From Saccharopolyspora spinosa NRRL 18395 (GTDB lineage Bacteria; Actinomycetota; Actinomycetes; Mycobacteriales; Pseudonocardiaceae), in contig NZ_GL877879.1 in assembly GCF_000194155.1 (NCBI RefSeq), positions 75,205 to 139,204 of the forward strand: a stretch of DNA of 64,000 bases. Direction: 5' to 3'. The notes beneath the pieces are model-generated. The model had not been told where the DNA came from and ran no database searches. It saw only the letters and a program-made list of their open reading frames with translations. The position numbers and the translations under genes were made by a program. Positions 3,585-41,115 of this stretch are shown here, piece after piece; position 1 is the stretch's first letter, and each line of letters starts with the position of its first letter.

Positions 3585-3605
3585 TATCGGGCGGAGCAGG
3601 CCCAC

Positions 3606-13500: not shown

Positions 13501-13966
13501 GTTGTCGTCGCAGCGCGGCTCCGGGACCGACTTCGGCCGCGAGGCTATCGACACCCTGGTGAAGCTGATGGAGGACCACCGCGACGAAGTCGTGGTGGTG
13601 GCGGCCGGCTACGAGGAGCAGATGGAGGATTTCCTGGCCGCCAACCCAGGACTGTCCTCGCGCTTCTCCCATCGGGTCCGGTTCGCCGACTACACCAACG
13701 ACGAACTGGTCACGATCGTCACCCAGCACGCGGCGTCGGCGGGCTACGAGTGCACTGGGCCGACGGTGGCGGCCCTGCGCGCCCACTTCGTGGCTGTGCT
13801 ACGCGGTACGTCGTTCGGCAATGGCCGCTACGCCCGCCAGGTCATGGACGAAGCGGTGACCCGCCACGCGAAACGCCTGCGCCTGACGGTGTCCCCGACG
13901 CTGGAGGATCTCTGCGTCCTACTCCCGGAAGACATCCCAGGCCCAGCCGAGGTCGTCGGCACTTAA
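10544..13966 (+). CDS. right-handed beta-helix protein fused to two CbbX/EccA-type AAA+ ATPase modules
   Basis: GTG 10544 is chosen for its aggag site 5 bp upstream; it overlaps the previous gene by 16 bp. ATG 10583 is the alternative. Residues about 10-520 form repeating 22-25-residue rungs typical of a pectate-lyase-like parallel beta-helix ([20 protein letters not shown] and similar). A charged linker follows. AAA+ module 1 covers about 585-835 (Walker [10 protein letters not shown] at 636-644, Walker [18 protein letters not shown]); module 2 covers about 865-1135 ([26 protein letters not shown]). Both resemble EccA of type VII secretion and the rubisco activase CbbX. Module 2 has the usual pore loop ([10 protein letters not shown]) but module 1 has [10 protein letters not shown], losing the aromatic. 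It is probably a cytosolic remodelling ATPase with a binding scaffold. Confidence 0.9.
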
Positions 13967-15002: not shown

Positions 15003-15871
15003 GGTACGGGCCGGCCCACCGATCTGCTACTGGCCGCGTGTGCGTCCCTGGGACTGTTGGAGAAGACCGGGAACGAATACCGCAACGCGCCGGTCGCGGA
15101 AGAGTTCCTCGTGGTGGGCCGTCCTTACTACTTCGGCGGCTTCGTCCGGTTCTGCGATCAGCGTGAGTACCCGGCCTGGCACCGGGTGGTTCAAGCGCTG
15201 CGCACGAACCGACCCACCACTTGGGACCCCGAGACCCAGTATTCGCCATTCGCGGCGGAAATCCGGTGATGATGGCCCTGTTCTGGGAGGCCATGTATTC
15301 CATCTCCACGTTCACCGCCCGAGCACTGGGCGACTCCTACGACTTCGCTGCGCACAACCGGCTGCTGGACGTCGGGGGCGGGCAGGGAGCGTTCCCGGTC
15401 GAGCTGTGCCGCCGCTACCCGCACCTGTCGGCCACCGTATTCGATCTTCCACACGTGTGTGACCTCGCCGAGGACAAGATCGCGGAATCGGGCATGGGCA
15501 ACGTGCTCCCCGCCGGCGACTTCCTCGACGCCCAGCCGCTGCCCAGTGGCTACGACGTCATTCTGCTGAGCATGATCCTCCACGACTGGGACGAGGCGAG
15601 CAATCGTCAGCTCCTGGCCAAGTGCTACGCGGCGCTTCCGCCGGGCGGCGCAGTTGTCGTGTGCGAACTGGTGCTGAACTCTGAGCGCACCGGCCCTCCA
15701 GCCGCCGCCCTGATGGGGATGAACATGCTCATCGAGACCGAGGGGGGCAAGAACTACTCGGAGACCGAGTACACAACGTGGCTCCTCGAAGCCGGGTTCG
15801 AGCAGCCACGCATCGTCCCGCTGGCCGCAGCCGGCGCGAACGCCGCGATCGTGGCCGTGCGAGGGAAGTAG
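15003..15871 (+). pseudogene. SAM-dependent O-methyltransferase, frameshifted
   Basis: The N-terminal part (LLLAACASLGLLEKTGNEYRNAP...DPETQ) runs in frame 3 to about 15245. The catalytic part (NPVMMALFWEAMYS...) is in frame 2 from about 15265 to TAG 15869. The motifs are those of plant/actinomycete small-molecule class I O-methyltransferases: LLDVGGGQG (SAM loop), VFDLPHVCD, DVILLSMILHDWDE, and the His-Asp pair expected for catalysis. An in-frame stop at 14997 shows the N-terminal dimerisation domain is also broken. The catalytic half alone (from ATG 15274) could be translated but would lack dimerisation. The stop overlaps the start of the polyketide synthase, so the two formed an operon. A sequencing error cannot be excluded. 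Confidence 0.8.
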
Positions 15872-16923
15872 TGCCCATTGTCTCCCGCCCCGTGGTGGGG
15901 CTACCGCCGCATGTGCTGGACCAAAATGAAGTCCTGGACCATTTGACACGCCGCCTGCGGGGCAACCCGAAAACCGCCGCCATCCGACGAGTGCTGGAGA
16001 ACACCACCGTACGGTCCCGGCGCGCCGTTATCCCGCTGGACGAGATCGTCGCGCACACGGGCCTGAACAAACGGAATCGTCTTCACCTCGAACACGCCGT
16101 CGGACTGGCTGCCAGCACGGCCCTCGACGCCCTGGACGCAGCCAACTGCACTGCGAACGACATTGATGCCCTGGTGGTTGCCAACTGTACCGGTCACGCC
16201 CTACCTGGCGTGGACGCACATCTGGTCAACACACTCGGACTGCGCCCGACCGTCCGCCGCACGCCCATCGCCCAGATGGGCTGTGCGGGCGGCGCCTACG
16301 CGCTCGCCCGGGCCGCACAGGACCTCGCGGCTCACCCCGACGCAACCCACGTCCTGGTTGTTGCGGTGGAACTCCCTTCCTTGTCCTACCAGGCGGACGA
16401 CCTCACGATTTCCAGCCTCGTCTCCGGCGCTTTGTTCGGGGATGCGTGCGCGGCCACTGTGGTCTCGGCCGACGACACTCGCAGCGGCCTACGCCTGGGT
16501 GCCGCCTGGGAGTACCTGCTACCGGCCTCCCTCGATGACATGGTCTACCGCGTCGACGAGGCGGGCTTTCACTTCGACACACTGCCATCCGTCACTGACT
16601 GCATAGTCAAAACCGTACCGCATCTGGCGACGTGGCTCCGAACGAACAGCGCCGACCCGCAATGGGCCCCGCAGTTCCTCGTCTCCCACACCGGCGGGCC
16701 GAAGATCATGGACGCGCTCAGGGACGGACTCGGATGTTCCGAGGAACTGTTTGCCTTTTCCCGTGCCAGTCTTCGCGAACTCGGCAATACCGCCAGTGTC
16801 GCCGTACTGGACGTCCTCGCCCGAACTTGGCACCAAGCGAGCACGCATCCAGCGGCAACTGGGTTGCTTGTCGGCTTCGGACCGGGCGTCACCACCGTGG
16901 CCATCCGCGCTTCGTGGAATTGA
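15871..16923 (+). CDS. type III polyketide synthase (chalcone/stilbene synthase family)
   Basis: GTG 15871 overlaps the methyltransferase stop (TAGTG). The 350-aa length is typical. The catalytic triad is present: Cys138 in QMGCAGG, His273 in VSHTGG, Asn306 in LGNTAS, plus the C-terminal GFGPGVT signature. The enzyme condenses malonyl-CoA units on a CoA starter, usually giving pyrones, resorcinols, phloroglucinols or tetrahydroxynaphthalene; which one cannot be read from the sequence. The adjacent O-methyltransferase would have tailored the product, but it is frameshifted. Soluble homodimer by family. No regulator or transporter adjoins. Confidence 0.97.
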   Translation: MPIVSRPVVGLPPHVLDQNEVLDHLTRRLRGNPKTAAIRRVLENTTVRSRRAVIPLDEIVAHTGLNKRNRLHLEHAVGLAASTALDALDAANCTANDIDALVVANCTGHALPGVDAHLVNTLGLRPTVRRTPIAQMGCAGGAYALARAAQDLAAHPDATHVLVVAVELPSLSYQADDLTISSLVSGALFGDACAATVVSADDTRSGLRLGAAWEYLLPASLDDMVYRVDEAGFHFDTLPSVTDCIVKTVPHLATWLRTNSADPQWAPQFLVSHTGGPKIMDALRDGLGCSEELFAFSRASLRELGNTASVAVLDVLARTWHQASTHPAATGLLVGFGPGVTTVAIRASWN

Positions 16924-24458: not shown

Positions 24459-25234
24459 CCTCGCAGTAGCCCAGCGTTAGGTGTGACCGCGCGGAATCTC
24501 CCGCCACCGACACTGGAGCGAAGGAGCTGCCAGCAAGCGCGGCCGGGCACCTCGCCTCGAATCAAGATCTTGGGTGCGGGAAAGTCCTGACGTACCTCGA
24601 TGCGACCCACAGTATCCGGACATGGCAGCTGCCATGCGATGCGTTTGCCGTCGGGGCTCTCGCGAGGGCCGGTTACGGGCCGTTGGTCGGCCCCCGCAGG
24701 GTCTCCTCCTGCCGGGGGGATGTGCGAAAGGAGGAGACAATCGGACCACACGCGCCACGAGCTGACCGAAGCAATACTGGCCGAGCCGCAGTGCCGGCAG
24801 CAAGAGTTGTCCAGGCAGCATCGTCGGCCATTTAGGGCAGCGACTTGACGGATTCGGTCAAGATCGTCAACGTGTGTGCGACGTTCGGACGGTCCGCACG
24901 CTTTCGATCTTGGGTTTGGCCTCAACCAGTCTCCAAAGATCCACATTGGTCGCCGGCTGCAGTGGCCCAGAGCTGCCGAGGCGCCGCACCCCCAGGTTGG
25001 TGCCGGGGAGGTACTTTCGTGCAGACATGGATGGACAAAAGTACCTCCATGTGCTTCGATGATCACGCTCATACGGATAAGCTTCATGCTCCGTGTGGAG
25101 TAGAGAACCGACCTTAGGAATGTATTTGGAGTCGCACGTATCCACCCTCCGAGCCGCCGCACGTCAAAAGCAGAAACAAGCTCCACCGTCTCATGCGGGA
25201 ACCATCAAGCCATTTAGCAACGGAGTTGGTCGGG
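24459..25234. other. Intergenic, about 0.8 kb, upstream of the KAS operon
   Basis: No convincing gene is present. A minus-strand frame (24425-25186) contains a stretch reading DGKRIAWQLPCPDTVGRIEV with a plausible coding texture but no recognised family, probably a decayed fragment. The region next to 25235 must hold the promoter of the KAS III operon; a gtggagtagaga sequence at 25095-25106 resembles the SARP heptamers but lacks 11-bp spacing. Confidence 0.4.
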
Positions 25235-26257
25235 ATGGCAGTCAGCGCTGTTATCGCGGGGTTGGCTGCCTGGTTGCCTCCCGCGGTTGTCACGAATAAA
25301 GATTTGTGCTCGAGGCTGGACACGTCCGAGGAGTGGATAGAAAGCCGCACGGGCATTATGGAGCGTCGGGTCGTCTCGAACGGTGTGGCGACGGTGGACT
25401 TGGCGGTGGAGGCTGGCGGTCGAGCGCTGAAGGCAGCCGGGGTGCCCGGGGTCGATGCGGTCGTTGTCGCGACGACCTCACCAGATCGGATCTGTCCAGC
25501 TGGAGCGCCGGAGGTGGCGTCGAGGCTCGGGCTGGGCCCCATCGCAGCTTACGACCTGACCTCTGCGTGCAGTGGCTTCGTCTACGGCCTTGCCACGTGC
25601 GCTGGGCTCATTAGCGCCGGGGTCGCCGAAAGTGTGCTTTTCATTGGTGCCGAAGCGTTCTCGACATTCATCGACTCTGAGAATCGCACCACCGCACCGA
25701 TCTTCGGCGATGGAGCCGGGGCGGCGGTCCTGCGTCGCGGAAGCCCAGCGGAGCCGGGCGCGATCGGACCGTTCGACCTGGGAAGCGACGGCGCGCAAGC
25801 GGATCTGCTGGCCATCCAGGGTGGTGGCTCACGGCAGCGGTCACTGACCGGGCTCGGTCACGGCGAGGTACCGACCGAGGACTGGTATCTATCGATGGCC
25901 GGACGGGCGATCTATCAGCAGGCGGTTGCCCGGATGACGGAATCCTCACTTGCCGTGCTCGATCGTGCCGGCTGGTCGGTGACCGACGTGGACCGCTTCG
26001 TCGGACACCAGGCCAACATCCGCATCCTCAGCTCCGTCGCCCAACGGTTGGGTATCGCGTCGGAGAAGGTTCTTATCAACATCGATCGAGTCGGAAACGC
26101 CCTTTCGGCATCCATCCCGCTCGTCCTGGCCAGCGCCGCCGCTGGCGGCGACCTGCGTCCGGGGGACAGGGTGCTGATCACCGCGTTCGGGGCGGGATTG
26201 TCCTGGGGTTCCACAGTCTTGGTGTGGCCGGACATTCCAGTAGACAGTCCACTGTGA
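25235..26257 (+). CDS. 3-oxoacyl-ACP synthase III (KAS III/FabH family)
   Basis: ATG 25235 begins MAVSAVIAGLAAWLPPAVVTN, aligned with FabH starts; the 340-aa length is normal. The catalytic triad is Cys112 (TSACSGFVYG), His258 (GHQANIRI) and Asn288 (VGNALSAS). KAS III enzymes condense an acyl-CoA with malonyl-ACP to start a fatty acid or polyketide chain. Following ACP and KAS II genes make a minimal dedicated elongation set. With a branched-chain 2-oxoacid dehydrogenase encoded 6 kb downstream, an isobutyryl-, isovaleryl- or 2-methylbutyryl-CoA starter is a reasonable inference. It could also be a primary-metabolism paralogue, but the isolated set suggests secondary metabolism. Confidence 0.95.
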   Translation: MAVSAVIAGLAAWLPPAVVTNKDLCSRLDTSEEWIESRTGIMERRVVSNGVATVDLAVEAGGRALKAAGVPGVDAVVVATTSPDRICPAGAPEVASRLGLGPIAAYDLTSACSGFVYGLATCAGLISAGVAESVLFIGAEAFSTFIDSENRTTAPIFGDGAGAAVLRRGSPAEPGAIGPFDLGSDGAQADLLAIQGGGSRQRSLTGLGHGEVPTEDWYLSMAGRAIYQQAVARMTESSLAVLDRAGWSVTDVDRFVGHQANIRILSSVAQRLGIASEKVLINIDRVGNALSASIPLVLASAAAGGDLRPGDRVLITAFGAGLSWGSTVLVWPDIPVDSPL

Positions 26258-26289
26258 GTTTTTCGAATTGAATTCAGAAGGAGACCGTG

Positions 26290-26529
26290 ATGAGCGATTT
26301 GTACACCCAACTCGGCGAATTGCTGACGAGTAAGTTCGATGTCGAGAGCTCGGATCTGAGGACCGACGCGTCGTTCGAAGACCTGGGCCTCGATTCATTG
26401 GCGCAGGTAGAACTGGGTGAATTGCTCGAGCAGCATTTCGGGGTCGAGGTCACCGATGCCGAGATGGAGAATATGGCCACGTTAGCTGACATCCTCGAAG
26501 CATTGGAGAAAAAGGGAGCGACCGTCTGA
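26290..26529 (+). CDS. acyl carrier protein
   Basis: ATG 26290 (79 aa) follows aaggagaccgtg. The phosphopantetheine attachment motif is DLGLDSLAQVEL with Ser36. The protein is acidic and helical, as usual. It lies 32 bp after the KAS III gene and overlaps the KAS II start (TGATG). It should carry the growing chain between the two ketosynthases. Confidence 0.97.
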   Translation: MSDLYTQLGELLTSKFDVESSDLRTDASFEDLGLDSLAQVELGELLEQHFGVEVTDAEMENMATLADILEALEKKGATV

Positions 26530-27749
26530 TGTCCGGATTCGCGGTGGCGGTCACCGGCCTCGGGCTCATCACGCCCGCAGGGATCGGTGTGGAGGAGAAC
26601 TGGAAGCAGGTCGCCGAAGGTTGTCCGACGGCGGCCACCGACCCTGAGCTGGCCGGGCTCCAGGTCGACTTTTCCTGCCGCGTACCGGGTTTCGATCCCG
26701 CCGCGAGTCTCGGTGAGCACAACGCCTGGCGGCTCGACCGTAACCAGCAGTTCGCCCTCGTCGCGGCGCGCGAAGCCGTTCGTGATGCGAAACTGACCGA
26801 GGACGACTGGGATGTCACCAGAGTGGGCGTTGTTCTCGGTTCCGCCGCCGGTGGAACTTCGACGATGGAAACGCAGCAGTCCAAGTTGCTGAATAACGGC
26901 GCGGCCAAAGTTTCGGCGCTGACCCTTCCGATGGGCCTGTTGAACATGGCGGCCGGTCAACTAGCGATCGAGCTCGGGGTACGGGGGCCGAATCTCACGA
27001 TCTGCACCGCCTGCGCCTCAGGCACGAGCGCGATCGGCGTGGCACGGGACCTGATTCGCTCCGGCTCGGCCGATATCGTCATTGCCGGGGCGACAGAAGC
27101 GGCGGTGACACCGCTGTTCGTCGCCGCATTCAGCCGGATGCGAGCACTTTCCAGGAACACCGACGATCCACGCGCCGCGTCCCGGCCTTTCGATGCGGCG
27201 CGGGACGGCTTCGTCATAGCCGAGGGCGGCGCGGTCCTGATTCTGGAAAGCGAGCGCCATGCGTTGGCCAGAGGAGCTCGGGTGCGTGGGCGGGTCATCG
27301 GTTACGGCGCGTCCGCCGACGGCCACCACGTTACGGCGCCCGACCCGGAGGGCAACGGGGCCGAGCAGGCAATCCGTGGTGCGTTGACCGACGCTGGTCT
27401 CACAGCGCGCGAGGTCCAGCACGTCAACGCCCACGGCACCGCCACGCCCCTCAATGATGTCATCGAAGCCGCCACCATCCGGCGGGTGTTCGGTGAGCAC
27501 GTCGCCGTCAGCTCAACCAAGGGCGTGACCGGGCACGCGCTCGGTGCCGCCGGGGCGATCGAAGCGGCATACGGGATCCTTTCCCTCCAACACGGGCACA
27601 TCCCTCCCACGGCCAACCTGGAAAGCCCGGATCCGCAGATCGAAGTCGACCTTGTATCCAAGACGGCACGTCCTTGCGCGCTCGAGGTTGTACTGAGCAA
27701 CTCCTTCGGCTTCGGTGGCCAGAACGCCGTGCTCGCCCTCGCAGCCTAG
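26529..27749 (+). CDS. 3-oxoacyl-ACP synthase II (KAS II/FabF family)
   Basis: ATG 26529 overlaps the ACP stop. The protein is 406 aa with the Cys-His-His triad: Cys162 (TACASGTSAI), His302 (NAHGTATPLND) and His336 (GVTGHALGAAG), and the C-terminal NSFGFGGQNAVL. It elongates acyl-ACP with malonyl-ACP. No chain-length-factor partner lies beside it, and no ketoreductase, dehydratase or enoyl reductase, so reduction would need primary fatty-acid enzymes or would not occur. It is the last gene of the three-gene operon. Confidence 0.96.
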   Translation: MSGFAVAVTGLGLITPAGIGVEENWKQVAEGCPTAATDPELAGLQVDFSCRVPGFDPAASLGEHNAWRLDRNQQFALVAAREAVRDAKLTEDDWDVTRVGVVLGSAAGGTSTMETQQSKLLNNGAAKVSALTLPMGLLNMAAGQLAIELGVRGPNLTICTACASGTSAIGVARDLIRSGSADIVIAGATEAAVTPLFVAAFSRMRALSRNTDDPRAASRPFDAARDGFVIAEGGAVLILESERHALARGARVRGRVIGYGASADGHHVTAPDPEGNGAEQAIRGALTDAGLTAREVQHVNAHGTATPLNDVIEAATIRRVFGEHVAVSSTKGVTGHALGAAGAIEAAYGILSLQHGHIPPTANLESPDPQIEVDLVSKTARPCALEVVLSNSFGFGGQNAVLALAA

Positions 27750-28468: not shown

Positions 28469-28663
28469 GTGGGCGATGACGTGGCGGCGGTGGCCGCGGC
28501 GATTCGGGCGGCGATGGCGCCGCACACCGACTTCCGGGGCACGCACGAGAGCGGGCTGGCGAAGATGATCGCCATCGGCCTCGGCAAGCACCGCGACGCG
28601 ACGACCCTGCACACCCTCGGCTTCGGAGTGTTCGGCGTCGCTGGCCTCCTGGCCGGGCCATGA
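28469..28663 (+). pseudogene. LarA/DUF2088-like fragment
   Basis: A 64-residue stretch, MAPHTDFRGTHESGLAKMIAIGLGKHRDA..LHTLGFG, resembles the conserved core of lactate racemase-like (LarA/DUF2088) proteins (typically KPHTDF.GP.ESGL.KM..IGLGKH). The rest of a roughly 400-aa protein is missing on both sides. Fragment only; the family call rests on memory of the motif. Confidence 0.5.
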
Positions 28664-29759
28664 GGCATGCCCGTGACCGGCCCAGAGCGCTGAGCAAAAT
28701 GGTCGCGGCTGCTGCCTCTGGTGAACGTGATCCGGGATGAGCGAATTGGTTCCAACGCGGCTGGGCCGGCATTTTCGGGATGGCAACTCCGCGCATATTC
28801 GAGAAGATCATGCACCATGTGTGGACGTGGGTGGCGTTGCTGATCGTCAAACGCCACAAGCGATCCTGTGCGTAATGGGTGGTCCGTGCTCGCCTACCAC
28901 TTCTCCGAACACTTCGGACAGTCAGGAACGACAGCAGCTGCCAGGCCGGTGCCCCGCAGGTCATCGTTACCCGAGTCACGGATGATCTGGAGGTTGGAGG
29001 TTCCTGCATGAGAAGCTGCCGTGAAGCCTGGCTGAGGGTAGCACTCTGCTGCAAATGGTCGGGATGGGCTCGGGACGGCGAACCTGGTCGCGCTCACAGC
29101 TTTGAAGCACCGCGAGCAGGCAGGCCGTCCGACGGGGCATTGTCGCGTGGCCCGCAAACCGCCAAGACCACCTGGGCAGGTATTTCAGAAGTTGCGCTCG
29201 ATTTTCGCAGGGAGCCTGCTGGGAGTATCGGCTTGTGATGCACTGAACCTGCTCTGACCGCCGTTTGGGGCACCTTCGGTGGTACTTCCGCCTGGGCGTT
29301 ACCTCTTGAGTGAACTGCGGCCGCGTAGACCGTGCGTCGCTCGCCGTTCAAACGTCTCACCACAGAATTGCTGGTCGGACGCCCATTTGATCGATCCGGG
29401 TGTATTGACCGCAGCTCCCCGCGCTGGGCTGTCTCAGCCGTTAGCGTGCACGAAATCTGAGCGCGGTCGGCTGCCCAGTCAGGCAGCCGTTACTGGATTT
29501 ACGGGCAGAGACGGCGGCGATCAGTTCCCGGACCGCTGACAATGGGCGGCGGTTCGGGCATCCTCCTTCGCGAGGAACCTCACAAGGGAAAACCCTCACA
29601 GCCGGAAGGGACAGTGTCAACCTCTCGCACCTTCCCATCTCACTAGGCATGCAGCCAGCGCTGACCGTGCCTTAGTTTCTGAACTTTGGTCGACGCCTCC
29701 AGCTGGAAGGCGGCGACGGATTTAGCCTGCATCGGGCGATACGGAGACGAGCCTTGGCC
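28664..29759. other. Intergenic, about 1.1 kb, before the PanC-HMGR operon
   Basis: No gene is supported. A short stretch near 28780-28860 (ATPRIFEKIMHHVWTWVALLIVKRHKRS in frame) has the look of a group II intron maturase end, but is too short to call. Base composition drops toward 29650-29750, where the operon promoter is expected. Confidence 0.4.
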
Positions 29760-31925
29760 ATGAAGATAGTCCGAACGGTAGCCGAGATTCGCGACTACAC
29801 AACGGAAATGCGCTTACGGGGACGAAGCATTGGTCTCGTCCCCGCGAAGGGCGCGTTACACGGAGGTCACGAATCCTTGATGAAAGCGGCGCGACGAGAG
29901 TGTGACGTCGTGGTGCTGGCCACTTTCATCGACCCGGCTCAGTTCAGCGGCGAAGGCGGCTTCGAGGGCTATCTCCGCGACGAGCAGCGCGATGCGGAGA
30001 TCGCTGCTCGACTAGGTATGGATGTGCTGCTCGCTCCGGAAGCGGCGGAGATCTCCCCGGATAGGTTCGCCACGACCGTTGGCCTGGGCGGGCCGCTGGT
30101 CGAGGCGATTCGGCGTACGGGGTCGACCGACGACGGCCAGTTGCCGGGGAAGTGCACGATCGCCACGAAGCTGTTCGACATCGTTCAACCGGACGTCGTG
30201 TTCTTCGAGGAGAAGGACCTGCCGGACTGGGTCGCGGTGAAGCGCATGGTTCGAGACCTGAACCTTGCCGTGTCGGTCAAGGTGTTGCCGACAGCACGAG
30301 AGTCCGACGGTTTCGCGATGTCGAGCCGCAACCTGTGCCTGGGTGACCACCGGCCGCAGGCTGTTGCGCTGTACCGCGCACTGCGCGCCGCTGCCGACTC
30401 GCTGAGCGACGGAGCAACCGATGCTGCCGTTCTGCGGGAGCGCGCGCTGGCAGCGATAGCGGTGGAAGTCTTGTCAGGCGACGTTGAACTCGACTACTTC
30501 GAGGTGCTCGACATCGAAACCCTCGAGCCCGTCGAGACGGTGGCGAATCCGGTGCTGTTGGCCATCGGTGCGCGGGCGGGAGCGGTCGCTTTGTTCGATA
30601 TCATCCGTCCAGAACTTGAGAACCAGACGTGCGTCGACGCCGGCACCGAGAAGGACCTAAGCGAAGTGGATCAGGCCGGAAACCACGCCCACCGTTGCGC
30701 GGAGTCGTCTGTGGACATCGTTGTTTCCCGCCACAGCTTCGATGAGCGCGTTGGTCTGATCAAGCAGTTGCTCGACAGGACCGGCGAATCCTACGAGCCG
30801 TTGAGAAGTGAGCTTGCGGAATCGGACGTTCGGGGGAACATCGAAAACTTCGTAGGTGCGGTTCCCATCCCACTCGGACTGTGCGGTCCCCTCGAAATCC
30901 GAGGTAGGGAAGCGCGAGGAACCTTCGCGGTCCCGATGGCCACCCTTGAGGGCACCCTGCTCGCATCATATTCGCGCGGAGCTAAGGTGATGAACCGGTC
31001 GGGAGGTTGCGAGACCCTGGTGTATGACGACTACTTCTTGCGTGCCACCCAACTCACCACGGACTCCCTCGATGGCTCGGCGCGGCTCATCGCGTGGTGC
31101 CGGGAACGCGAGGACGTTATTCGCGAGATAGCGGTCGGCAGTAGTCGTCATCTGGGTGTGGCGGAAATTTCCTATGATTGTGCGGGTACTTCCGTCATCT
31201 TGTCGCTCCGGTGCACCACGGGTGACGCGATGGGCAGCAACATGGTCAGCAAGGCCGTGAGCCTAGTGTCCAATTATGTCACGAAAAACAGCGGTCTGGT
31301 GCGCGAGGAATTCGTGCCGTACCCGGAGGACAAGAAGAACATCCCGGCCCGCAAGAAGGGGAAGAAGGTCATCGCCCGTACCGTTCTGAAAGAGGATGTG
31401 GTGCGGACGATGACCCGAGTTGGCCTGGATCAACTGGCCAGCTACATCCGGAACTACAAGAATGCGCTGGCCCTGCACGGAAGTCCTTCCCTCAATATCC
31501 ATGCGGTCAACGGCATGGCCGCGCTGTTCCAGGCCTTCGGGCAGGACATGGCATATCTTGGTGAATGTTCACAAGGAGTGGTGGACTGCCAGTTCCTGCC
31601 GTCCGGTGATCTTGAGGTGTCCATAACCTTGCCGACCCTCATCGTGGGGACTGTTGGTGGCGGAACGGGCCTTCCCGCTTTCCGCACAACGCTTTCCATA
31701 GTGGACTGCTATGGTGCGGGGAAAGCCAAGAAGCTCGCCGAGATCATGGCCGCCGTGATGCTCGGCGGCGAAATCGGATGCGCTGCGGCGCAATGCAGCA
31801 ACGAGTTCGTCGCGGCACATGAGTCGCTGGGGAAGAACCGGCCATTCGACGCCGTCCCTCAGTTGGCGCGACCACGGCTTCCGGTCGGCGAGTCCATCGA
31901 TGACACGGTGATGAGCCCCGCATGA
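29760..31925 (+). CDS. PanC-like adenylating amide synthetase fused to HMG-CoA reductase
   Basis: ATG 29760 gives 721 aa; TTG 29754, closer to the ggag site, would add two residues. Residues 1-285 are a pantothenate synthetase fold: HxGH at 34-37 (GALHGGH), Gln61 (DPAQF), EEKD at 150-153 and MSSRN. Compared with M. tuberculosis PanC, the nucleotide-site Met is Lys30, pantoate-binding Gln164 is Asp156, and the HF of the RPxHF loop is absent. Residues about 310-721 are HMG-CoA reductase with catalytic Glu397 (MATLEGT), Lys525 (DKK), Asp596 (FGQD) and His687, plus DAMGSNM and VGTVGGGTGLP. HMGR makes mevalonate from HMG-CoA with NADPH. Mevalonate resembles pantoate, so the PanC part may adenylate it and join it to an amine (inference). 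No other mevalonate-pathway gene is present. ATGA overlap with E1alpha. Confidence 0.93.
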   Translation: MKIVRTVAEIRDYTTEMRLRGRSIGLVPAKGALHGGHESLMKAARRECDVVVLATFIDPAQFSGEGGFEGYLRDEQRDAEIAARLGMDVLLAPEAAEISPDRFATTVGLGGPLVEAIRRTGSTDDGQLPGKCTIATKLFDIVQPDVVFFEEKDLPDWVAVKRMVRDLNLAVSVKVLPTARESDGFAMSSRNLCLGDHRPQAVALYRALRAAADSLSDGATDAAVLRERALAAIAVEVLSGDVELDYFEVLDIETLEPVETVANPVLLAIGARAGAVALFDIIRPELENQTCVDAGTEKDLSEVDQAGNHAHRCAESSVDIVVSRHSFDERVGLIKQLLDRTGESYEPLRSELAESDVRGNIENFVGAVPIPLGLCGPLEIRGREARGTFAVPMATLEGTLLASYSRGAKVMNRSGGCETLVYDDYFLRATQLTTDSLDGSARLIAWCREREDVIREIAVGSSRHLGVAEISYDCAGTSVILSLRCTTGDAMGSNMVSKAVSLVSNYVTKNSGLVREEFVPYPEDKKNIPARKKGKKVIARTVLKEDVVRTMTRVGLDQLASYIRNYKNALALHGSPSLNIHAVNGMAALFQAFGQDMAYLGECSQGVVDCQFLPSGDLEVSITLPTLIVGTVGGGTGLPAFRTTLSIVDCYGAGKAKKLAEIMAAVMLGGEIGCAAAQCSNEFVAAHESLGKNRPFDAVPQLARPRLPVGESIDDTVMSPA

Positions 31926-33058
31926 ACACTACAGTTGAGAAGGTCGATGGCACCGTCTCAGCGCCGGTGCGGCCGCCGCGGCTCGACCCTGCCTCGCTAC
32001 TTCCTGAACGTGAGCCGTTCCAGGTCCTCGGTACGGCCAAGGCCGCTGACATCGACATCGAACTCATGCGGACCCTGTACTGGGACGTTGTGCGGGGTAG
32101 ACGCTACAACCTGCAGGCAACGGCGTTGGCGAAGCAGGGAAGACTCGCCGTTTACCCGTCAACCACCGGGCAAGAGGCTTGTGAAGTCGCGGCCGCCCGC
32201 GCCTTGTCGCCGCAGGACTGGCTTTTCCCCACATACCGCGACACGCTCGCCGCTATCGTCCGAGGCGTTGACCCCGTTGAGGCGCTGGCAGTGATGCGTG
32301 GGGACTGGCATCATGGATACGATCCCTACGCGCACCGGGTTGCCCCACTGGCCACTCCGCTCGCTACCCAGCTTCCGCACGCTGTCGGGCTCGCCCGGGC
32401 CGCTCGGTTGAAAGGCGAAGACACCGTTGCCCTCGCCTTGGTGGGGGACGGCGGCACCAGCGAAGGTGACTTCTACGAGGCGGTCAACTTCGCTGCGGTA
32501 CTGCAGGCGCCGGTGGTCTTCCTGGTGCAGAACAACAGGTTCGCCATCTCCGTCCCGCTGGCCAAGCAGAGCGCCGCACTGGCGCTGGCCGACAAAGCGG
32601 TCGGCTTCGGGCTGCCGGGACGTCTTGTCGACGGCAACGACGTCGTCGCCGTACACCAGGTTCTCACCGAAGCCGTGGAACGCGCTCGGCACGGCGGTGG
32701 ACCTACCCTGGTGGAGGCGATGACCTACCGCATCGATCCGCATACCAACTCCGACGATGACAGCCGGTATCGCGACCCCTCGGAGGTCGACCGGTGGCGC
32801 GAGCACGACCCGGTTCTGGTGCTGGAACGATCCTTGCGCGGCCTGGGCGTTCTCGACGACTCCGACATCGAGGGAGCGGCTCGCTCGGCCGACGACTTCG
32901 CGGCAGACCTGCGCAAGCGCCACGAGCACCAGCCGAACCCGGATCCGATGACATTGTTCTCGCACGTCTTCGCGAAGAAGACACCCCAGTTGAGTGAGCA
33001 GGAAGCAATGGTGCGTGCCGAGCTGCACGCGCAAGCAGAAGGGGACAGCCAACTGTGA
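31922..33058 (+). CDS. bkdA: branched-chain 2-oxoacid dehydrogenase E1 alpha subunit
   Basis: ATG 31922 overlaps the upstream stop (ATGA). The protein is 378 aa. The thiamine-diphosphate motif reads GDGGTSEGDFYEAVNFAAV...FLVQNN, and the phosphorylation-loop region YRIDPHTNSDDDSRYRDPSEV is of branched-chain type rather than pyruvate type. With E1beta it decarboxylates 2-oxoisovalerate and related acids and passes the acyl group to lipoyl-E2. The overlap couples it to the PanC-HMGR fusion, implying that a branched acyl-CoA and mevalonate are used together. Cytoplasmic complex; E3 is not encoded here. Confidence 0.94.
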   Translation: MNTTVEKVDGTVSAPVRPPRLDPASLLPEREPFQVLGTAKAADIDIELMRTLYWDVVRGRRYNLQATALAKQGRLAVYPSTTGQEACEVAAARALSPQDWLFPTYRDTLAAIVRGVDPVEALAVMRGDWHHGYDPYAHRVAPLATPLATQLPHAVGLARAARLKGEDTVALALVGDGGTSEGDFYEAVNFAAVLQAPVVFLVQNNRFAISVPLAKQSAALALADKAVGFGLPGRLVDGNDVVAVHQVLTEAVERARHGGGPTLVEAMTYRIDPHTNSDDDSRYRDPSEVDRWREHDPVLVLERSLRGLGVLDDSDIEGAARSADDFAADLRKRHEHQPNPDPMTLFSHVFAKKTPQLSEQEAMVRAELHAQAEGDSQL

Positions 33059-34119
33059 CTAGAGCTTCGGCCGCTGTTGCGGGATCAGTCCCCGAAGCAA
33101 GGACTTCCAACCAGCGCTCGATCACGATGGCGCAGGTACTCAACGCAGCCCTGCGGGACGCTCTGCAAGAGGATCCATCCGTGCACATCATGGGCGAGGA
33201 TGTGGGTGCGCTGGGAGGGGTATTTCGGATCACCGACGGATTGGCCGCCGAATTCGGCAGCGACCGGTGCGCGGATACTCCCTTGGCGGAGGCGGCGATC
33301 TTGGGAACCGCCGTGGGAATGGCGATGAACGGGCTGCGTCCGGTCGTGGAGATGCAGTTCGATTCCTTCGCATACCCGGCTTTCGAGCAACTGGTCAGCC
33401 ACGTCGCCCGCATGCGCAACCGGACGAAGGGCCGCATCCAGCTACCGATCACCATCCGCATTCCCTATGGCGGCGGAATCGGTGCGGTCGAGCACCACAG
33501 CGACTCATCTGAGGCCTACTACATGCACACGCCGGGGCTGCACGTCGTCTGCCCGGCCACCCATGCTGACGCCTATGGCCTGCTGCGGGCATCGATCTCT
33601 TCCAATGACCCAGTGATTTTTCTGGAACCCAAGAGGTTGTACTGGTCCAAAGCTCAGTGGTCGCCGGAGTCCATCCCGGAAGTGGATCCGATCGGCACTG
33701 CGGCGGTCCGTCGTCATGGGACTTCGGCGACGCTGATCACGTATGGTCCAAGCCTGCCGGTGTGCATGGAGGCGGCGGCGGAAGCCATCAAGGAAGGCTG
33801 GCAACTCGAAGTCCTGGACCTGCGCTCATTGGTGCCGTTCGACGACGAAACGGTGTCCGCCGCAGTGCGGCGGACAGGACGCGCCGTCGTGGTGCATGAG
33901 TCTGCCGGTTTCGCGGGGCCAGGCGCGGAGATCGCAGCGCGCATCACCGAACGGTGCTTCCACCACCTGGAAGCGCCGATTCTTCGGGTCACCGGGCTGG
34001 ACATTCCGTACCCGCCACCGATGTTGGAGAACCACCACCTGCCCTCCGTGGACCGGATTCTCGATGCCGTGGCTCGCCTGCAATGGGAGCCGGGCACATC
34101 CGATGGGGAGACCTGCTGA
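33055..34119 (+). CDS. bkdB: branched-chain 2-oxoacid dehydrogenase E1 beta subunit
   Basis: GTG 33055 overlaps the E1alpha stop by 4 bp. The protein is 354 aa; the first about 25 residues are a non-conserved leader, so an internal ATG (33127, MAQVLNAALRDAL) might also serve. Conserved features are the MGEDVGALGGVFRITDGL and DTPLAEAAILGTAVGMAMNGLRPV blocks and IPYGGGIGAVEHHSDSSEAY with the catalytic-site His pair. It forms the alpha2beta2 E1 with the upstream gene. Confidence 0.94.
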   Translation: MTRASAAVAGSVPEARTSNQRSITMAQVLNAALRDALQEDPSVHIMGEDVGALGGVFRITDGLAAEFGSDRCADTPLAEAAILGTAVGMAMNGLRPVVEMQFDSFAYPAFEQLVSHVARMRNRTKGRIQLPITIRIPYGGGIGAVEHHSDSSEAYYMHTPGLHVVCPATHADAYGLLRASISSNDPVIFLEPKRLYWSKAQWSPESIPEVDPIGTAAVRRHGTSATLITYGPSLPVCMEAAAEAIKEGWQLEVLDLRSLVPFDDETVSAAVRRTGRAVVVHESAGFAGPGAEIAARITERCFHHLEAPILRVTGLDIPYPPPMLENHHLPSVDRILDAVARLQWEPGTSDGETC

Positions 34120-34120
34120 C

Positions 34121-35377
34121 ATGTCACCGATCCGTGAGTTCCGGCTGCCTGACATCGGTGAAGGTCTCATCGATGCGGAAATCGTTCGATGGCTCGTGGA
34201 CATTGGCGATCACGTGCAGGTCGACCAGCCGGTGGTCGAGGTGGAGACCGCGAAGGCCACAGTCGAACTGCCTTGCCCGTACGAGGGAACAGTCACCAGT
34301 CGGGTAGGCGCGGTGGGAGAGATCCTCGCCGTTGGCAGCACTCTGGTGACAGTTGAGGTCACGCCCGAGCGGTCGCAGGATGTGGGCAAGGTGCTTGTCG
34401 GCTCTGGCGTCCGTGCTGTACCCCCTCGGAGCCGCCGCCGTGTTCGCTCGGTGCCTGTTCATCACGCCGCGAACACCGTTGTGCGTCCCACATCGGTCAC
34501 ACATACCACCCCGCCGGCTCTGGCGGGCGCACCGGTCGCTGTGGTCTCACCACTGGTTCGCCGCCTCGCCAGGGTGAACGGGATCGATCTGCGGACCGTC
34601 CAGGGCACCGGCGCGTGTGGTCTTGTCCTGCGTGCGGACGTCGAAAGAGCGGTAGCCGCAGGCCGCCGAGCCGATGCGGTCGACTGTACGGAAACCGAGC
34701 GCATTCCGATTCGCTCGGTGCGCAAGAAAATCGCCGACAAGCTTTCCCGCAGTCGGCGTGAGATACCAGACGTTACGTGTTGGGTCGATGCAGATGCTAC
34801 CAACCTGCTCACGGCCAGGGACGTACTCAGTTCCGCTACCGAGCGGACTGGTGTGCTTGCGCTGCTGGCACGCATCTGCGTCGCAGCCGCGCTCCGGTTC
34901 CCCGAATTGAATTCCACAGTAGATACTGGCGGGCAGGAGATCATCCGCTTCGCCAACGTCAACCTTGGCTTCGCAGCGCAGACTGACAAGGGGTTGTTGG
35001 TTCCTGTGGTGCACAAAGCCAACCGGATGACCCTCTCACAACTGTCCAGTGAGATCCGGCGGCTCGCCGAATCCGCTCGGTCCGGCACGCTGACTCCGTC
35101 CGAAATGACCGGTGCGACGATCACACTGAACAACTACGGCCGTTATGGAATCGACGGTGCCACACCGATCATAAATCACCCTGAGGCAGCGATGCTCGGT
35201 GTGGGACGCATCGTGGCCAAGCCCTGGGTCCACGATGGTGAGTTGGCGGTGCGCCAAGTCGTGCAACTCGGCTTGACTTTCGATCACCGAGTCTGCAATG
35301 GAGACGTTGCGTCCGGTTTCCTCCGCTATGTCGCCGATCATATCGAGCAGCCACTCAAACTCATCTCAGCGCCGTAG
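34121..35377 (+). CDS. bkdC: dihydrolipoamide acyltransferase E2 of the branched-chain complex
   Basis: ATG 34121 lies one base after the E1beta stop. The 418-aa protein has a lipoyl domain with Lys45 (EVETAKATVEL), an Arg/Pro/Thr-rich linker, a peripheral-subunit-binding domain near 142-178 (VSPLVRRLARVNGIDLRTVQGTG) and a catalytic domain from about 190. The active-site motif, normally DHRxxDG, reads DHRVCNG (His389, Asn393): the usual Asp is Asn. This may weaken or redirect acyl transfer. The remainder, including NYGRYGIDGATPIINHPEAA, is normal. It provides acyl-CoA, probably branched starters for the KAS III system. Confidence 0.93.
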   Translation: MSPIREFRLPDIGEGLIDAEIVRWLVDIGDHVQVDQPVVEVETAKATVELPCPYEGTVTSRVGAVGEILAVGSTLVTVEVTPERSQDVGKVLVGSGVRAVPPRSRRRVRSVPVHHAANTVVRPTSVTHTTPPALAGAPVAVVSPLVRRLARVNGIDLRTVQGTGACGLVLRADVERAVAAGRRADAVDCTETERIPIRSVRKKIADKLSRSRREIPDVTCWVDADATNLLTARDVLSSATERTGVLALLARICVAAALRFPELNSTVDTGGQEIIRFANVNLGFAAQTDKGLLVPVVHKANRMTLSQLSSEIRRLAESARSGTLTPSEMTGATITLNNYGRYGIDGATPIINHPEAAMLGVGRIVAKPWVHDGELAVRQVVQLGLTFDHRVCNGDVASGFLRYVADHIEQPLKLISAP

Positions 35378-35390
35378 CCGAGAGGTAGCT

Positions 35391-35738
35391 ATGTCTCTCA
35401 TGTCCATGCCGGACGAGTACGTCGACGGAAAGGTCGACATGTCGGTGCTTCGCCGAAGGACTGATGATATCGACCAGCGCGTCATCGAATTGCTGCATGC
35501 TCGCCGAGACGTGTCCCAGCAGGTTCTGCGGACTCGCACCGATGTGGGCGGACCGCGGATTGAGCCGGTGCGGGAAGCGGAATCACCGAGGCTCAACGGC
35601 CGAGTGCGCACCAGTGACATGGGTATGCGATCCCATGCACGGCAACACGTTCGCCTCGCCCGGTGGTTACCAGACCCGACTCCTCGACGACGTGCTCGAC
35701 GAGGTGACGGAGGTGAGCGCGGCGGCAAGGGTGAGTAA
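35391..35738 (+). CDS. chorismate mutase-like (AroQ) protein with aberrant C-terminus
   Basis: ATG 35391 follows gagagg, 13 bp after the E2 gene. Residues 17-64 (SVLRRRTDDIDQRVIELLHARRDVSQQVL...PVREAE) match the first two-thirds of AroQ chorismate mutases, with LRxxIDxID and the REAE end of helix 2. From about residue 66 the frame becomes arginine-rich and out of register with an overlapping DAHP synthase scrap, so helix 3 and its active-site residues are lost. It is probably non-functional as a mutase. It suggests that the ancestral operon once also fed from chorismate. Confidence 0.6.
   Translation: MSLMSMPDEYVDGKVDMSVLRRRTDDIDQRVIELLHARRDVSQQVLRTRTDVGGPRIEPVREAESPRLNGRVRTSDMGMRSHARQHVRLARWLPDPTPRRRARRGDGGERGGKGE
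35602..35712 (+). pseudogene. class II DAHP synthase C-terminal scrap
   Basis: In frame 1 the sequence APVTWVCDPMHGNTFASP and YQTRLLDDVLDEV is the signature end of plant-type (class II) 3-deoxy-arabino-heptulosonate-7-phosphate synthases (CDPMHGNT). It overlaps the out-of-register end of the chorismate mutase-like frame. Only about 37 codons remain of a protein of roughly 450 residues. DAHP synthase is the entry step of the shikimate pathway. Confidence 0.7.
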
Positions 35739-37776: not shown

Positions 37777-39267
37777 ATGCGGCCACTCCTTCTCACAACG
37801 CCGGACGTCGCGGCCCCATATCACCACGCGGCCGCCAGTTTCGGGATGGAGCTGCTGGTGGGTACAAGCCCACACGAGCTCTCATCAGCGCTCGATGGAC
37901 ACCGCGCGGTCGCAGTGCTCGGTAGCGGCACCGGGACAGCCGGGAGCGTCACCGTGGACGGCGTCACTGTGGCTAACGAGGTTCGTGGGCAGGGGTGGTC
38001 ACAGCATTGTCCCTCGGCTCCATTCTTGTTGGGCACATTGCATCGGTCCGGGGTCACGGCTACCCCCGCCCGGGTTACAGCTGACTCGGTTCAATCGGAA
38101 ACCGCTCCAACGCAGGCGATCGCTGAGCTGCGCGCCGATCACCGGTTGACTGAACTGTTCCGTACGGCGGCCGCGGCCGGCGGACCAGCGGCGTATCTTG
38201 CGCTGGCACCGGCCGAAACTGCACCTGACGACGCCCGATTGATCCACTCAGTGCTCTCCAGCGTGGAAGCCTGGGGCGCCGCAGCGGCGTCACGAACGGT
38301 ACTGCTCGCTAGTCCTCGGGCGTTCTGCGCCGGCGTGGAACGTGCCATCACAATCGTCGAGCGGCTGCTCGCCGGCCAAGAGGCGCCGATCTTCGTCCGC
38401 AAGCAGATCGTGCACAACACGCACGTCGTACGGGACCTCGAAGAGCGCGGTGCGGTCTTCGTCGATGAACTCGATGAGGTGCCGGTCGGCGCAACAGCGG
38501 TGTTCTCAGCGCATGGCGTGGCACCGGCCGTGCGCGAGCAGGCCCAGCAGCGGCAACTACGGGTGGTTGATGCCACGTGCCCGCTGGTGACGAAAGTGCA
38601 CTCAGAAGCGCGGCGATTCGCCGAACGCGGCGACACCATCGTGTTCATCGGCCACGCAGGCCACGAGGAGAGCGAAGGAACCCTCGGCGAAGCACCACAG
38701 CAAATCCGACTCGTGGAAACCGAAGACGACATCGATGCCTTGGAGATCGACGGCCCGGTCTCCTACCTGACGCAGACCACGCTCGCAGTGGACGAGGCGA
38801 ACCGGCTGGTGCAGCGCCTGAGGGCTCGGTTTCCGCACTTGACGGGCCCGAACTCGGACGATATCTGCTACGCAACGACGAATCGGCAGGACGCGCTACG
38901 CACGATCGCCGCGCAGGCGGACCTCATCGTCGTGGTCGGCTCGGCGAACTCATCGAACTCGGTTCGACTGGTGGAAGTCGCGGAACGCATGGGCACACCA
39001 GCTTTTCTCATCGACGATGTCAGCGACGTGGATCCACGGTGGCTCGCAGACGCACGCACAATCGGCATCACAGCCGGTGCCTCGGCACCACCGCAGCTGG
39101 TGTCCGATCTACTCGATGCACTGGCTGGCCTGGGGCACACCACTGTGTTGGAACGAGTCGTCGCCAAAGAAACACTCAGCTTCGGCCTCCCAACGCAAGT
39201 ACGTGGCCACGCAGGCGAGTCAGTGACCTCCACTCCAGAACACTCCACACAAGCAGGAGGCGTCTGA
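37777..39267 (+). CDS. ispH: 4-hydroxy-3-methylbut-2-enyl diphosphate reductase with extra N-terminal domain
   Basis: ATG 37777, 26 bp after the prenyl synthase; 496 aa, about 170 longer than usual. The C-terminal 320 residues are IspH/LytB with the three iron-sulfur cysteines ([33 protein letters not shown]) and VHNTHVV, AHGV and [11 protein letters not shown]. It performs the last MEP-pathway step to IPP and DMAPP. The N-terminal part (AVAVLGSG...VTVANEVRG...[15 protein letters not shown]) resembles nucleoside-phosphorylase/hopanoid-associated phosphorylase folds, but the match is from memory and catalytic residues are unclear. The N-terminal half may be regulatory or vestigial. A 4Fe-4S cytosolic enzyme that needs a reductant. 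Confidence 0.95.
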
Positions 39268-41115
39268 ATGTGTATTTTACAGACCATTCATGGCCCTGCG
39301 GACCTACGCGTATTGAGCCAAGCCGATCTGGTCCAGCTTGCCGATGAGATCCGATCAGTGCTCATCGACACCGTGCGTCGCACCGGCGGCCATCTCGGCC
39401 CCAATCTCGGCGTCGTCGAACTGACTCTCGCGCTGCATCGAGTCTTCGACTCGCCAACGGACCCGATCATTTGGGACACCGGACATCAGACATACGTGCA
39501 CAAGCTCCTCACCGGACGCCACTCGGAATTCGATCGCCTGCGCCAACGCGGTGGCATCTCAGGATACCCAAGCCAATCCGAGTCCGAACACGACTTCGTG
39601 GAGAACTCGCACGCCTCAACCGCATTATCTTATGCGGACGGCCTCGCGAAAGCATTCGATATCCGCAAGGAAAGCACCCGCACCGCAGTCGCTGTGCTCG
39701 GCGATGGTGCACTGACCGGCGGGATGTGCTGGGAAGCGTTGAACAACATCGGCGCGGAGCCGAATCGACCCGTGGTAATCGTGCTCAATGACAACGCCCG
39801 ATCCTATGCGCCCACGGTAGGCGCGGTTGCCGAGCATCTCGCCAGGCTGCGCATGAGGCGCGCCAATGACAGTCGAACCACCAGCGATGAGTCGCTCTTC
39901 GAACGCATCGGCCTACACTATCTTGGCCCAGTCGACGGTCATGACATCGCCGCAATGGAGAGGACGCTGCGTCAGGCCCGCGATCTGCGACGGCCCGTCG
40001 TCGTGCATTGCGTGACCCGCAAGGGAAAAGGTTACGCACCAGCCGAGGAGAACGAGGCCGATCGCCTGCACGCGGTCGGTCCAAATGCTCCGGCATTTGC
40101 CCCATCCGGTGGCGGAAAGAAGCAGACCTGGACCGATGCCTTTGGCGAAGAGATCGCACGGCTGGCCGACGAACGGGCCGACCTGGTGGCCGTCACCGCC
40201 GCGATGCTCCGTCCCGTTGGGTTGTCTCGATTCTCCCGCAACTATCCGGAACGAGTATTCGACGTCGGTATGGCTGAGCAGCATGCGGTCACCTCGGCGG
40301 CTGGGCTGGCGATGGGTGGCCTGCATCCGGTAGTGGCGATCTACTCGACATTTTTCAACCGAGCGTTCGACCAAGCATTGTTGGACGTGGCGCTGCACCG
40401 GCTCCCGGTCACATTCGTGCTGGACCGAGCCGGGGTGACCGGCGAGGACGGCCCCAGCCACCACGGCATGTGGGATTTGTCGATTCTGCACAATGTGCCC
40501 GGCATTCGAGTTGCCGCGCCGCGTGATGCCGACACGCTGCGCGCCGAACTGCGGGAGGCCGTTGAATACCAAGGGGGTCCAACGGTCCTCAGATTCCCGA
40601 AAGCCACCGTCGGACCCGATATTCCCGCAGTCTCCACCATAGGCACCCTGGATATGCTCGTGAGCGGGAAGCAGTCGGATGTGCTCATCGTGTCCGTCGG
40701 TGCTATGGCCGAGGATTGCGTCACTGCGGCAGCGCAGCTGGCCAGCCATCACATCGGTGTCACAGTTGTCGATCCACGCTGGGTATTGCCGGTGAACCCG
40801 TTGTTGGCCGAACTGGCAGCGGCGCATCGGTTGGTGGTCACTGTCGAAGACAACAACCGGGCCGGCGGGTTCGGCACAGCGCTCGCACAGTTGCTGCACG
40901 ACCGCGGTGTGCACACACCGGTATGCGCGTTGGGGATACCGCCAGCATTCCTCGCGGCGGGTAAGCGGAAAGAACTGCTTGCCGGTGCGGAGCTGAGCGC
41001 GGACCTGCTGGCCAGGCGAATTCAGCGCGAAATGGCTGAGCGTCTGGTCCCAGGCGGGTTGCTGCCCCGACAGCAGCAGCTCGCGGGAAAGCGAATCGCA
41101 GAGGTAAGAGCATGA
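39268..41115 (+). CDS. dxs: 1-deoxy-D-xylulose-5-phosphate synthase
   Basis: ATG 39268 begins directly after the ispH stop, with aggagg 6 bp upstream; 615 aa, full length. The ThDP motif is [16 protein letters not shown]...[38 protein letters not shown] and the transketolase-type [18 protein letters not shown] with the catalytic Glu are present. It is the first step of the MEP pathway, from pyruvate and glyceraldehyde 3-phosphate. A cluster copy would raise precursor flux, as often seen in terpenoid clusters. The stop overlaps an ATG that opens into ispG-derived sequence. Confidence 0.97.

Follow-up and report, generated by a model that had tools for sequence, protein, structure and literature searches.

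The reductase FcrA (Grossi et al. 2025; PMC11948995) is described as a homologue of 3-hydroxy-3-methylglutaryl-CoA (HMG-CoA) reductase (HMGR) for which reduction of fatty acyl-CoA, but not of HMG-CoA, has been shown. According to the main text of that paper, the FcrA of N. pharaonis contains Glu at the Ser684 position and Trp at the Leu862 position, and a small residue in place of the HMG-binding lysine (printed as Lys795 and taken here as Lys735); the purified enzyme showed no activity under 14 carbons, and fusions of FcrA to other domains (acyl carrier protein (ACP), Lad) are known. Neither pantoate nor pantothenate is mentioned in that main text, and no PanC fusion is reported in the passages used here. 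The polar contacts of the HMG part of statins are given as Arg590, Ser684, Asp690, Lys691, Lys692, Asn755 and Lys735 (PMC9500038), HMG/statin-contact residues being listed also in PMC3875450, and the pantoate site of PanC is described as containing two conserved glutamines (PMC7770189). Here, a stretch of 64,000 nucleotides of Saccharopolyspora spinosa NRRL 18395 (contig NZ_GL877879.1, positions 75,205 to 139,204; hereafter the window) was found to contain a gene in which a PanC-like and an HMGR-like domain are joined in one frame.

The frame was found to contain no internal stop, the first start being a TTG at 29754 followed by an ATG at 29760, from which an earlier, sequence-only reading had taken the gene to be a PanC-HMGR fusion that possibly forms a mevalonyl amide (or mevalonyl-AMP). 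The fusion itself was borne out, since both Pfam domains, Pantoate_ligase and an HMG-CoA_red domain of the class-I HMGR type, were found in the frame (Table 1). The NCBIfam score of the whole fusion was 207.0 bits for panC (TIGR00018) and 225.7 bits for NADPH-HMGR (TIGR00533), under the respective cut-offs of 212.75 and 441.8. A matching in-frame fusion was found in two other genomes of the family, G776 (identity to the window 90% in the PanC half and 96% in the HMGR half) and G012 (73% and 87%), and thus spans three genomes and two genera; because of this recurrence an assembly or sequencing artefact at the junction, named in the sequence-only reading as a possible refutation, was rejected as very unlikely. 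The window genome (G000; 8,581,920 bases in 22 contigs) was also found to contain a separate PanC (C2:371458), which scores better than the PanC half of the fusion, and, on a different contig (C3), a second gene of the HMGR family, class-II-like by alignment and followed by a putative HMG-CoA lyase gene (by eye). The fusion is therefore an extra and not the housekeeping copy.

The reading preferred here, to which about as much belief as doubt is attached, is that of an FcrA-like acyl-CoA-to-alcohol reductase joined to a PanC-like acid-activating domain, as an enzyme of secondary metabolism whose cluster is partly decayed in this strain. Within the class-I HMGR superfamily the reductase domain would belong to a branch of its own, FcrA-like in kind, and would not form mevalonate. 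Its clade was represented by 12 rows, aligned with four HMGR-type rows (the solved HMGRs human 1dq8, 8ecg and 6hr7, and L095). All 12 clade rows were found to contain conserved Glu559, Ser565, Arg568, Arg590, Asp690, Lys691, Lys692, His752, Asn755, Asp767 and His866; the four catalytic residues placed by the sequence-only reading at Glu397, Lys525, Asp596 and His687 of the fusion correspond to Glu559, Lys691, Asp767 and His866 of this set. The Ser684 position was occupied by Pro with two residues deleted, the Leu862 position by Phe and the Thr558 position by Leu or Met in 12/12 clade rows, whereas the HMGR-type rows contained Ser, Gly and Asn at positions 684-686 and Leu at 862 in 4/4. The Lys735 position by alignment was occupied by Lys (7/12) or Arg (5/12), which sits two to three residues nearer to Asp767 than in the HMGR-type rows; at the FcrA distance of 30 from Asp767, the clade residue was found to be Tyr, Phe or Ala. 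Six same-phylum references (L086-L091) contained Trp862 in all five that reach this position, L091 ending before the C-terminus, and Gly or Ser at 735. The clade-specific part consists of the loop deletions and Leu862Phe; of the three positions that mark FcrA, two set the clade apart from HMGR by alignment, the third being unclear.

In the class-I trees, from which the class-II-like HMGR rows L001, L092, L093 and L094 were left out, the clade of the window formed one group (support 100/100, stem of 1.78 changes per column) apart from HMGR and from the Trp862-type references. The tree is unrooted and consists of these three groups, the published FcrA sequences not among them, so that no placement inside FcrA is claimed. 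A Trp862-type HMGR homologue of a same-phylum genome (L040:1489-2757), which directly adjoins an acyl-CoA-ligase-like gene (by eye), is probably an FcrA.

The PanC half was found to group with those of G776 and G012 and with the stand-alone PanC of G182 (59% identity to the PanC half of the window), with support of 100/100 and a stem of 1.13. Of 70 positions that do not vary among 18 reference PanCs, 23 were changed in the window, 19 in G776 and 16 each in G012 and G182. In the numbering of the M. tuberculosis enzyme, Arg132, His135, Tyr162, Gln163 and Gln164 were lost in 4/4 subfamily members, the Gln164 position (Gln in 18/18 references) being occupied by His in G012 and G182 and by Asp in the window and G776. 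The latter two also contained Asn69Asp, Gly158Glu, Met40Lys and Val187Ala, of which Met40 and Val187 are not fully invariant among the reference PanCs, and the HF of the RPxHF loop was gone in the window. The changes named by the sequence-only reading (Lys at Met40, Asp at Gln164 and the missing HF) were thus confirmed by alignment, as was the retention of the adenylation residues His44, His47, Lys160, Asp161, Ser196, Ser197 and Arg198, whose single roles we take to be those of PanC. The two pantoate-site glutamines, presumably Gln72 and Gln164, have different fates in the window, the former being kept and the latter replaced by Asp. The changed acid pocket claimed for this half is upheld, and the extra changes of the window could equally well reflect erosion or a new specificity.

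In G182, the subfamily PanC gene was found between DUF2520 and PanB, and among 24 genomes of its genus (E <= 1e-60) the subfamily was found in G182 only. Two of the four subfamily members (G182 and G776) lie near a second PanB. Since the partner of the subfamily is PanB, its acid is judged from this context to be probably pantoate-like rather than mevalonate-like. Second PanB-DUF2520 pairs were found in S. shandongensis, S. elongata and G776. An SMP-30-type lactonase lies nearby (by eye; the L051 copy was scanned), and the G776 region also contains a LarA-like isomerase (L085:6313-7608, NF052515) with LarB/LarC/LarE-like genes by eye. These loci (L085:2059-10798, L082:2688-9921 and L051:8729-12582) perhaps encode a pathway that isomerises pantoate or pantolactone. 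G000 and G012 contained one PanB each, so that any pantoate there would come from primary metabolism.

The distribution of the reductase clade was found to be narrow. A clade profile search (E <= 1e-90) gave 11 positive genomes among 390 of the family, that of the window included, followed by the window genome only among 394 genomes of the class, and the window genome and one Trp862-type relative among 396 genomes of the phylum. The PanC half was present in three of the 11 (G000, G776 and G012), and the other eight contained the reductase with no PanC match in the stretch around the gene. A scan of a named genome collection gave nine HMGR-like loci (Saccharopolyspora elongata, S. shandongensis, Amycolatopsis coloradensis, four Lentzea, Kribbella antibiotica and an Acidobacteria metagenome-assembled genome), 0/9 with a PanC match in the stretch around the gene; the two samples overlap, several of the nine apparently being the family genomes G774, G783, G157, G051 and G707. 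No relative was found in the viral contigs searched. The sequence-only reading knew of no such fusion, and no description of one was recognised in the open-licence PubMed Central literature, among the matches listed.

In the window, the fusion was found in the order KS3, ACP, KS2, a 2-kb gap, fusion, E1 alpha, E1 beta, E2 and remnants (Table 1). G012 contained an acyl-CoA-oxidase-like gene, KS2, ACP and KS3 on one strand and, on the other strand, the fusion, E1 alpha, E1 beta, E2, chorismate mutase and class-II 3-deoxy-D-arabino-heptulosonate 7-phosphate (DAHP) synthase. S. elongata and S. shandongensis contained the reductase without the PanC half, E1 alpha, E1 beta, E2, chorismate mutase and DAHP synthase, and long frames matching the DAHP synthase remnant of the window were found in G012 and in these two species. 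In G776, the PanB gene close to the fusion is spread over more than one frame, KS2 is truncated and only a remnant of the DAHP synthase is left. The gene remnants in the window and in G776 indicate that the cluster is partly broken in the lineage of the window.

Table 1. Positions of the fusion gene, its domains and the neighbouring genes in the window
Feature	Position	Strand	Remarks
PanC-like / HMGR-like fusion gene	29754..31925	+	723 codons; matching fusion in G776, G012
PanC-like acid-activating domain (putative), residues 4-283	29763..30602	+	PF02569, E 4.2e-63; four-member subfamily, support 100/100
HMGR-like acyl-CoA reductase domain (predicted), residues 329-693	30738..31832	+	PF00368, E 2e-90; separate clade, support 100/100
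FabH-type ketosynthase III (KS3)	25193..26257	+	also adjoins the fusion in G776, G012
Acyl carrier protein (ACP)	26287..26529	+	named by eye; identity 61% to G012, 85% to G776
FabF-type ketosynthase II (KS2)	26529..27749	+	from family scans
Remnant, 92% match to part of the LarA-like (nickel-pincer isomerase) frame of G776	28519..28642	+	assigned by eye
2-oxoacid dehydrogenase E1 alpha	31922..33058	+	start overlaps fusion stop (ATGA)
2-oxoacid dehydrogenase E1 beta	33055..34119	+	start overlaps E1 alpha stop (GTGA)
2-oxoacid dehydrogenase E2	34121..35377	+	lipoyl, E3-binding and catalytic domains
Chorismate mutase remnant	35394..35582	+	matches residues 4-66 of 92 in the S. shandongensis protein
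Class-II DAHP synthase remnant	35596..35706	+	residues 300-336 of 414
IspH-like	37777-39267		downstream of the fusion; gene of the methylerythritol phosphate (MEP) route
DXS-like	39268-41115		downstream of the fusion; MEP-route gene

The statement of the sequence-only reading that no mevalonate-pathway gene is nearby holds in so far as none was recognised adjacent to the fusion, but the MEP-route IspH-like and DXS-like genes and a prenyl synthase were found downstream in the window, in addition to the second HMGR-family gene elsewhere in the genome. The IspH-like gene lies between the prenyl synthase and DXS and was found to contain about 170 extra N-terminal residues, and the prenyl synthase beside it also matches the encapsulin cargo-4 model, under its cut-off.

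The neighbours of the reductase were found to differ between the genera of the clade. E1 alpha, E1 beta and E2 adjoin the reductase in 5/5 Saccharopolyspora/G012 loci. In A. coloradensis, a wax-ester synthase/diacylglycerol acyltransferase (WS/DGAT) gene starts 70 bases 3' of the reductase. In the four Lentzea loci and that of Amycolatopsis G672, a glycosyltransferase adjoins the reductase, with a fusion of CoA ligase and short-chain dehydrogenase/reductase (SDR) and a zinc alcohol dehydrogenase nearby in 5/5, a multicopper oxidase in 4/5 (the four Lentzea) and an aromatic amino-acid lyase in 3/5 within the stretches covered (L024, L036 and L053), the best NCBIfam model of the lyase being histidine ammonia-lyase (342 bits, under the cut-off). 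The layout of lyase, CoA-ligase-SDR, reductase, alcohol dehydrogenase and glycosyltransferase in these three Lentzea and Amycolatopsis loci (L024:8354-20652, L036:6314-19034 and L053:9850-18753), with the multicopper oxidase in the two Lentzea ones, recalls by analogy plant monolignol synthesis. In Kribbella antibiotica (L025:8979-11140), a prephenate dehydratase overlaps the reductase start, followed by the presence of a terpene synthase and a prenyl synthase downstream. Judged from the gene content, the shared theme of these contexts is a putative acyl-CoA supplier such as E1/E2 or CoA ligase, often aromatic, with a putative alcohol user, wax-ester synthase or glycosyltransferase, in some loci.

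On the preferred reading, the C-terminal domain would carry out, with NADPH, the four-electron reduction of a non-HMG acyl-CoA (or acyl-ACP) to an alcohol, the candidate acyl groups being aryl, branched or long-chain. The 2-oxoacid dehydrogenase E1/E2, encoded by genes that overlap the fusion gene, would provide the acyl group, which may be extended by KS3, ACP and KS2 before reduction. Phenylpyruvate is suggested as precursor by the genes for chorismate mutase and DAHP synthase that the less damaged relatives contain, and could be converted to arylacetyl-CoA, with a branched-chain acyl-CoA as the alternative; that the acyl group is aromatic is a guess. The N-terminal PanC-like domain would activate a pantoate-related hydroxy acid as acyl-AMP and pass it to an acceptor, at whose nature we can likewise only guess. 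Decay seems to be under way in the PanC half and in the precursor genes of the window lineage, so that full activity is more likely in the G012-type relatives.

The reading of the fusion as a mevalonyl-amide synthetase, in which the HMGR half makes mevalonate and the PanC half joins it to an amine, draws on the kept HMGR catalytic residues, on Arg590 and the Lys/Arg near Lys735, on the lost pantoate-binding Gln164 and on the chemical likeness of mevalonate to pantoate. It is opposed by the shortened HMG-recognition loop with Ser684 lost in 12/12 and Leu862 changed to Phe, by the pairing of the PanC subfamily with PanB, by the eight of 11 family genomes with a reductase and no adjoining PanC, several of them beside aromatic or wax-ester genes, and by the cluster, in which no amine-making gene was recognised. 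HMG-CoA can arise from leucine breakdown, so that the supply does not exclude HMG-CoA as substrate; it is the pocket that makes it unlikely. Matches of the HMG-CoA synthase family were weak and partial (40-53 bits) and occurred in three of eight clade-bearing genomes, two of them (L098 and L100) adjoining enoyl-CoA-hydratase-like sequence by eye; these two look like polyketide beta-branching enzymes, L099 being less clear. Mevalonate kinase over the cut-off was found in 0/8 of these genomes, with weaker kinase-family matches in all eight, and a host mevalonate pathway was rejected on these two counts. Mevalonate as the substrate shared by the two halves is therefore not upheld and the mevalonyl-amide reading is highly improbable, whereas the role outside isoprenoid synthesis, proposed along with it, is supported. 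Very unlikely, too, is a true HMGR kept for statin-like self-resistance or mevalonate supply and joined to PanC by accident. The class-I HMGR fold and catalytic set would suit such an enzyme, and HMGR copies do serve as resistance genes in fungal clusters, but the pocket residues are changed rather than conserved, and as mevalonate kinase did not exceed the cut-off in any of the eight genomes, no mevalonate route needing protection is seen.

A different question is whether the PanC half still works. Between the window and G776, the ratio of nonsynonymous to synonymous changes (dN/dS) was found to be 0.38 in the PanC half, 0.71 in the linker (28 codons) and 0.16 in the HMGR half, followed by 0.20 in E1 alpha, 0.16 in E1 beta, 0.23 in KS3, 0.38 in ACP and 0.27 in the housekeeping PanC; the PanC half is thus still constrained, less than the HMGR half. 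Since the split from G012, its branch was 0.32 in the window against 0.053 in G012 (about 6-fold), compared with about 0.125 against 0.053 (about 2.4-fold) for the HMGR half. The PanC half is absent in S. elongata and S. shandongensis, where blastn matches with E < 1e-5 begin only at the HMGR-half start and no convincing PanC remnant was found 5' of the reductase, the best tblastn matches being short opposite-strand pieces with E >= 0.001. Fast change together with loss in two sister species makes erosion a serious rival, according to which the Saccharopolyspora lineage retains the PanC half as a vestige that is losing its function and the protein works as a reductase only. The changed invariant positions, Asn69Asp and Gly158Glu among them, and the broken DAHP synthase and chorismate mutase of the window and PanB and KS2 of G776 fit this rival; a dN/dS below 1, equal to that of ACP and somewhat over that of the housekeeping PanC, the retention of all eight residues from His44 to Arg198 listed above, Gln72 included, and the joint presence of Lys40 and Asp164 in the two species, perhaps as a new pocket, do not, and the rival is regarded as unlikely though well within reach. 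A comparable, rather doubtful standing is given to the possibility that each half has its own, unrelated substrate within one pathway and that they are joined for co-expression only; the occurrence of PanC alone in G182 and of the reductase alone in eight other family genomes and the poor conservation of the linker agree with it, but the fusion has been retained across three genomes of two genera. Less probable than these, and quite unlikely, is a two-site condensing enzyme, in which the alcohol of the reductase (an arylethanol, say, or a fatty alcohol that is branched or bears an aryl tip) would receive the pantoate-like acyl group from its acyl-AMP and a PanC-family ligase would form an ester and not an amide; this variant would fit the gene order of G012, with acyl-CoA makers adjoining and no amine gene recognised, as well as the wax-ester synthase that adjoins a clade member standing alone.

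Several observations weigh against the preferred reading of an alcohol-forming reductase joined to an acid-activating domain. The nearest solved structures of the E1 subunits were 2-oxoacid and pyruvate dehydrogenases first and branched-chain enzymes next, and such mixed relatives point to no one substrate for E1/E2. Ser684 was absent also in four of the six Trp862-type references, so that its loss alone is not specific to the clade and is weakened as proof of a non-HMG substrate. The Trp862 of FcrA and its inactivity under 14 carbons, as described in the main text of PMC11948995, mean that its activity is not simply transferable to the clade, and the Lys/Arg at or near Lys735 opens the possibility of an acidic or polar tail on the substrate. 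Kinase-family matches under the mevalonate kinase cut-off were found in 8/8 clade-bearing genomes, full-length and of 74-78 bits in G000, G776 and G012. The wax-ester synthase was seen in one clade context only, the neighbours of the Acidobacteria locus (L027) are uninformative, and the two Saccharopolyspora species without the PanC half show this half to be dispensable.

Apart from the cluster, the window was found to contain a type III polyketide synthase of the chalcone/stilbene-synthase type (15778-16923), upstream of the cluster, and a large protein (10136-13966) in which right-handed beta-helix repeats precede two AAA ATPase domains. A direct repeat of 300 bases (544-843 and 3323-3622; 89%, spacing 2779) was found together with two 343-codon frames (863-1894 and 3642-4673) of equal spacing (2779), start and composition, and both probably stem from a tandem duplication of about 2.8 kb; the Pfam scan of the first frame gave no match.

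These results suggest that the proteins annotated as bacterial HMGR include a third rare branch besides HMGR and FcrA, likely to be acyl-CoA-to-alcohol reductases, for which Lentzea and Amycolatopsis contain candidate clusters of a phenylpropanoid-like kind. PanC, too, was found to have a subfamily in which the acid site is changed, and the annotation of such genes as mevalonate or vitamin genes may mislead. The fusion points to an unexplored small-molecule pathway.

Compared with class-I HMGR (1dq8, 8ecg and 6hr7), the clade shares the catalytic residues, the TGDAMG motif, Arg590, His752 and Asn755, but the HMG-recognition loop and Leu862 are not kept. With FcrA, as far as it is described in the main text of PMC11948995, the clade shares its class-I HMGR relationship with the four catalytic residues kept, the replacement of Ser684 and of Leu862 by a bulky residue (Pro and Phe, respectively, in the clade), hosts without mevalonate kinase over the cut-off and, in one member, an adjoining wax-ester synthase. 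Unlike FcrA, it contains Phe862 in place of Trp862, a two-residue deletion in the Ser684 loop, a three-residue deletion after DKK and, by alignment, a Lys/Arg retained near 735 where FcrA has a small residue; it also forms a clade of its own, on the stem given above, and bears the PanC fusion. The PanC half resembles PanC (M. tuberculosis 1mop and others) in its fold by sequence and in the adenylation residues and Gln72 kept in the window, but differs in the five residues lost from Arg132 to Gln164 in all four subfamily members and at Met40, Asn69, Gly158 and Val187 in the window and G776. Another PanC joined to a second enzyme is the bifunctional PanC/(d)CMP kinase (NF010004); its partner domain, however, is unrelated to that of the window fusion, which scores 196.9 bits with this model against a cut-off of 524.

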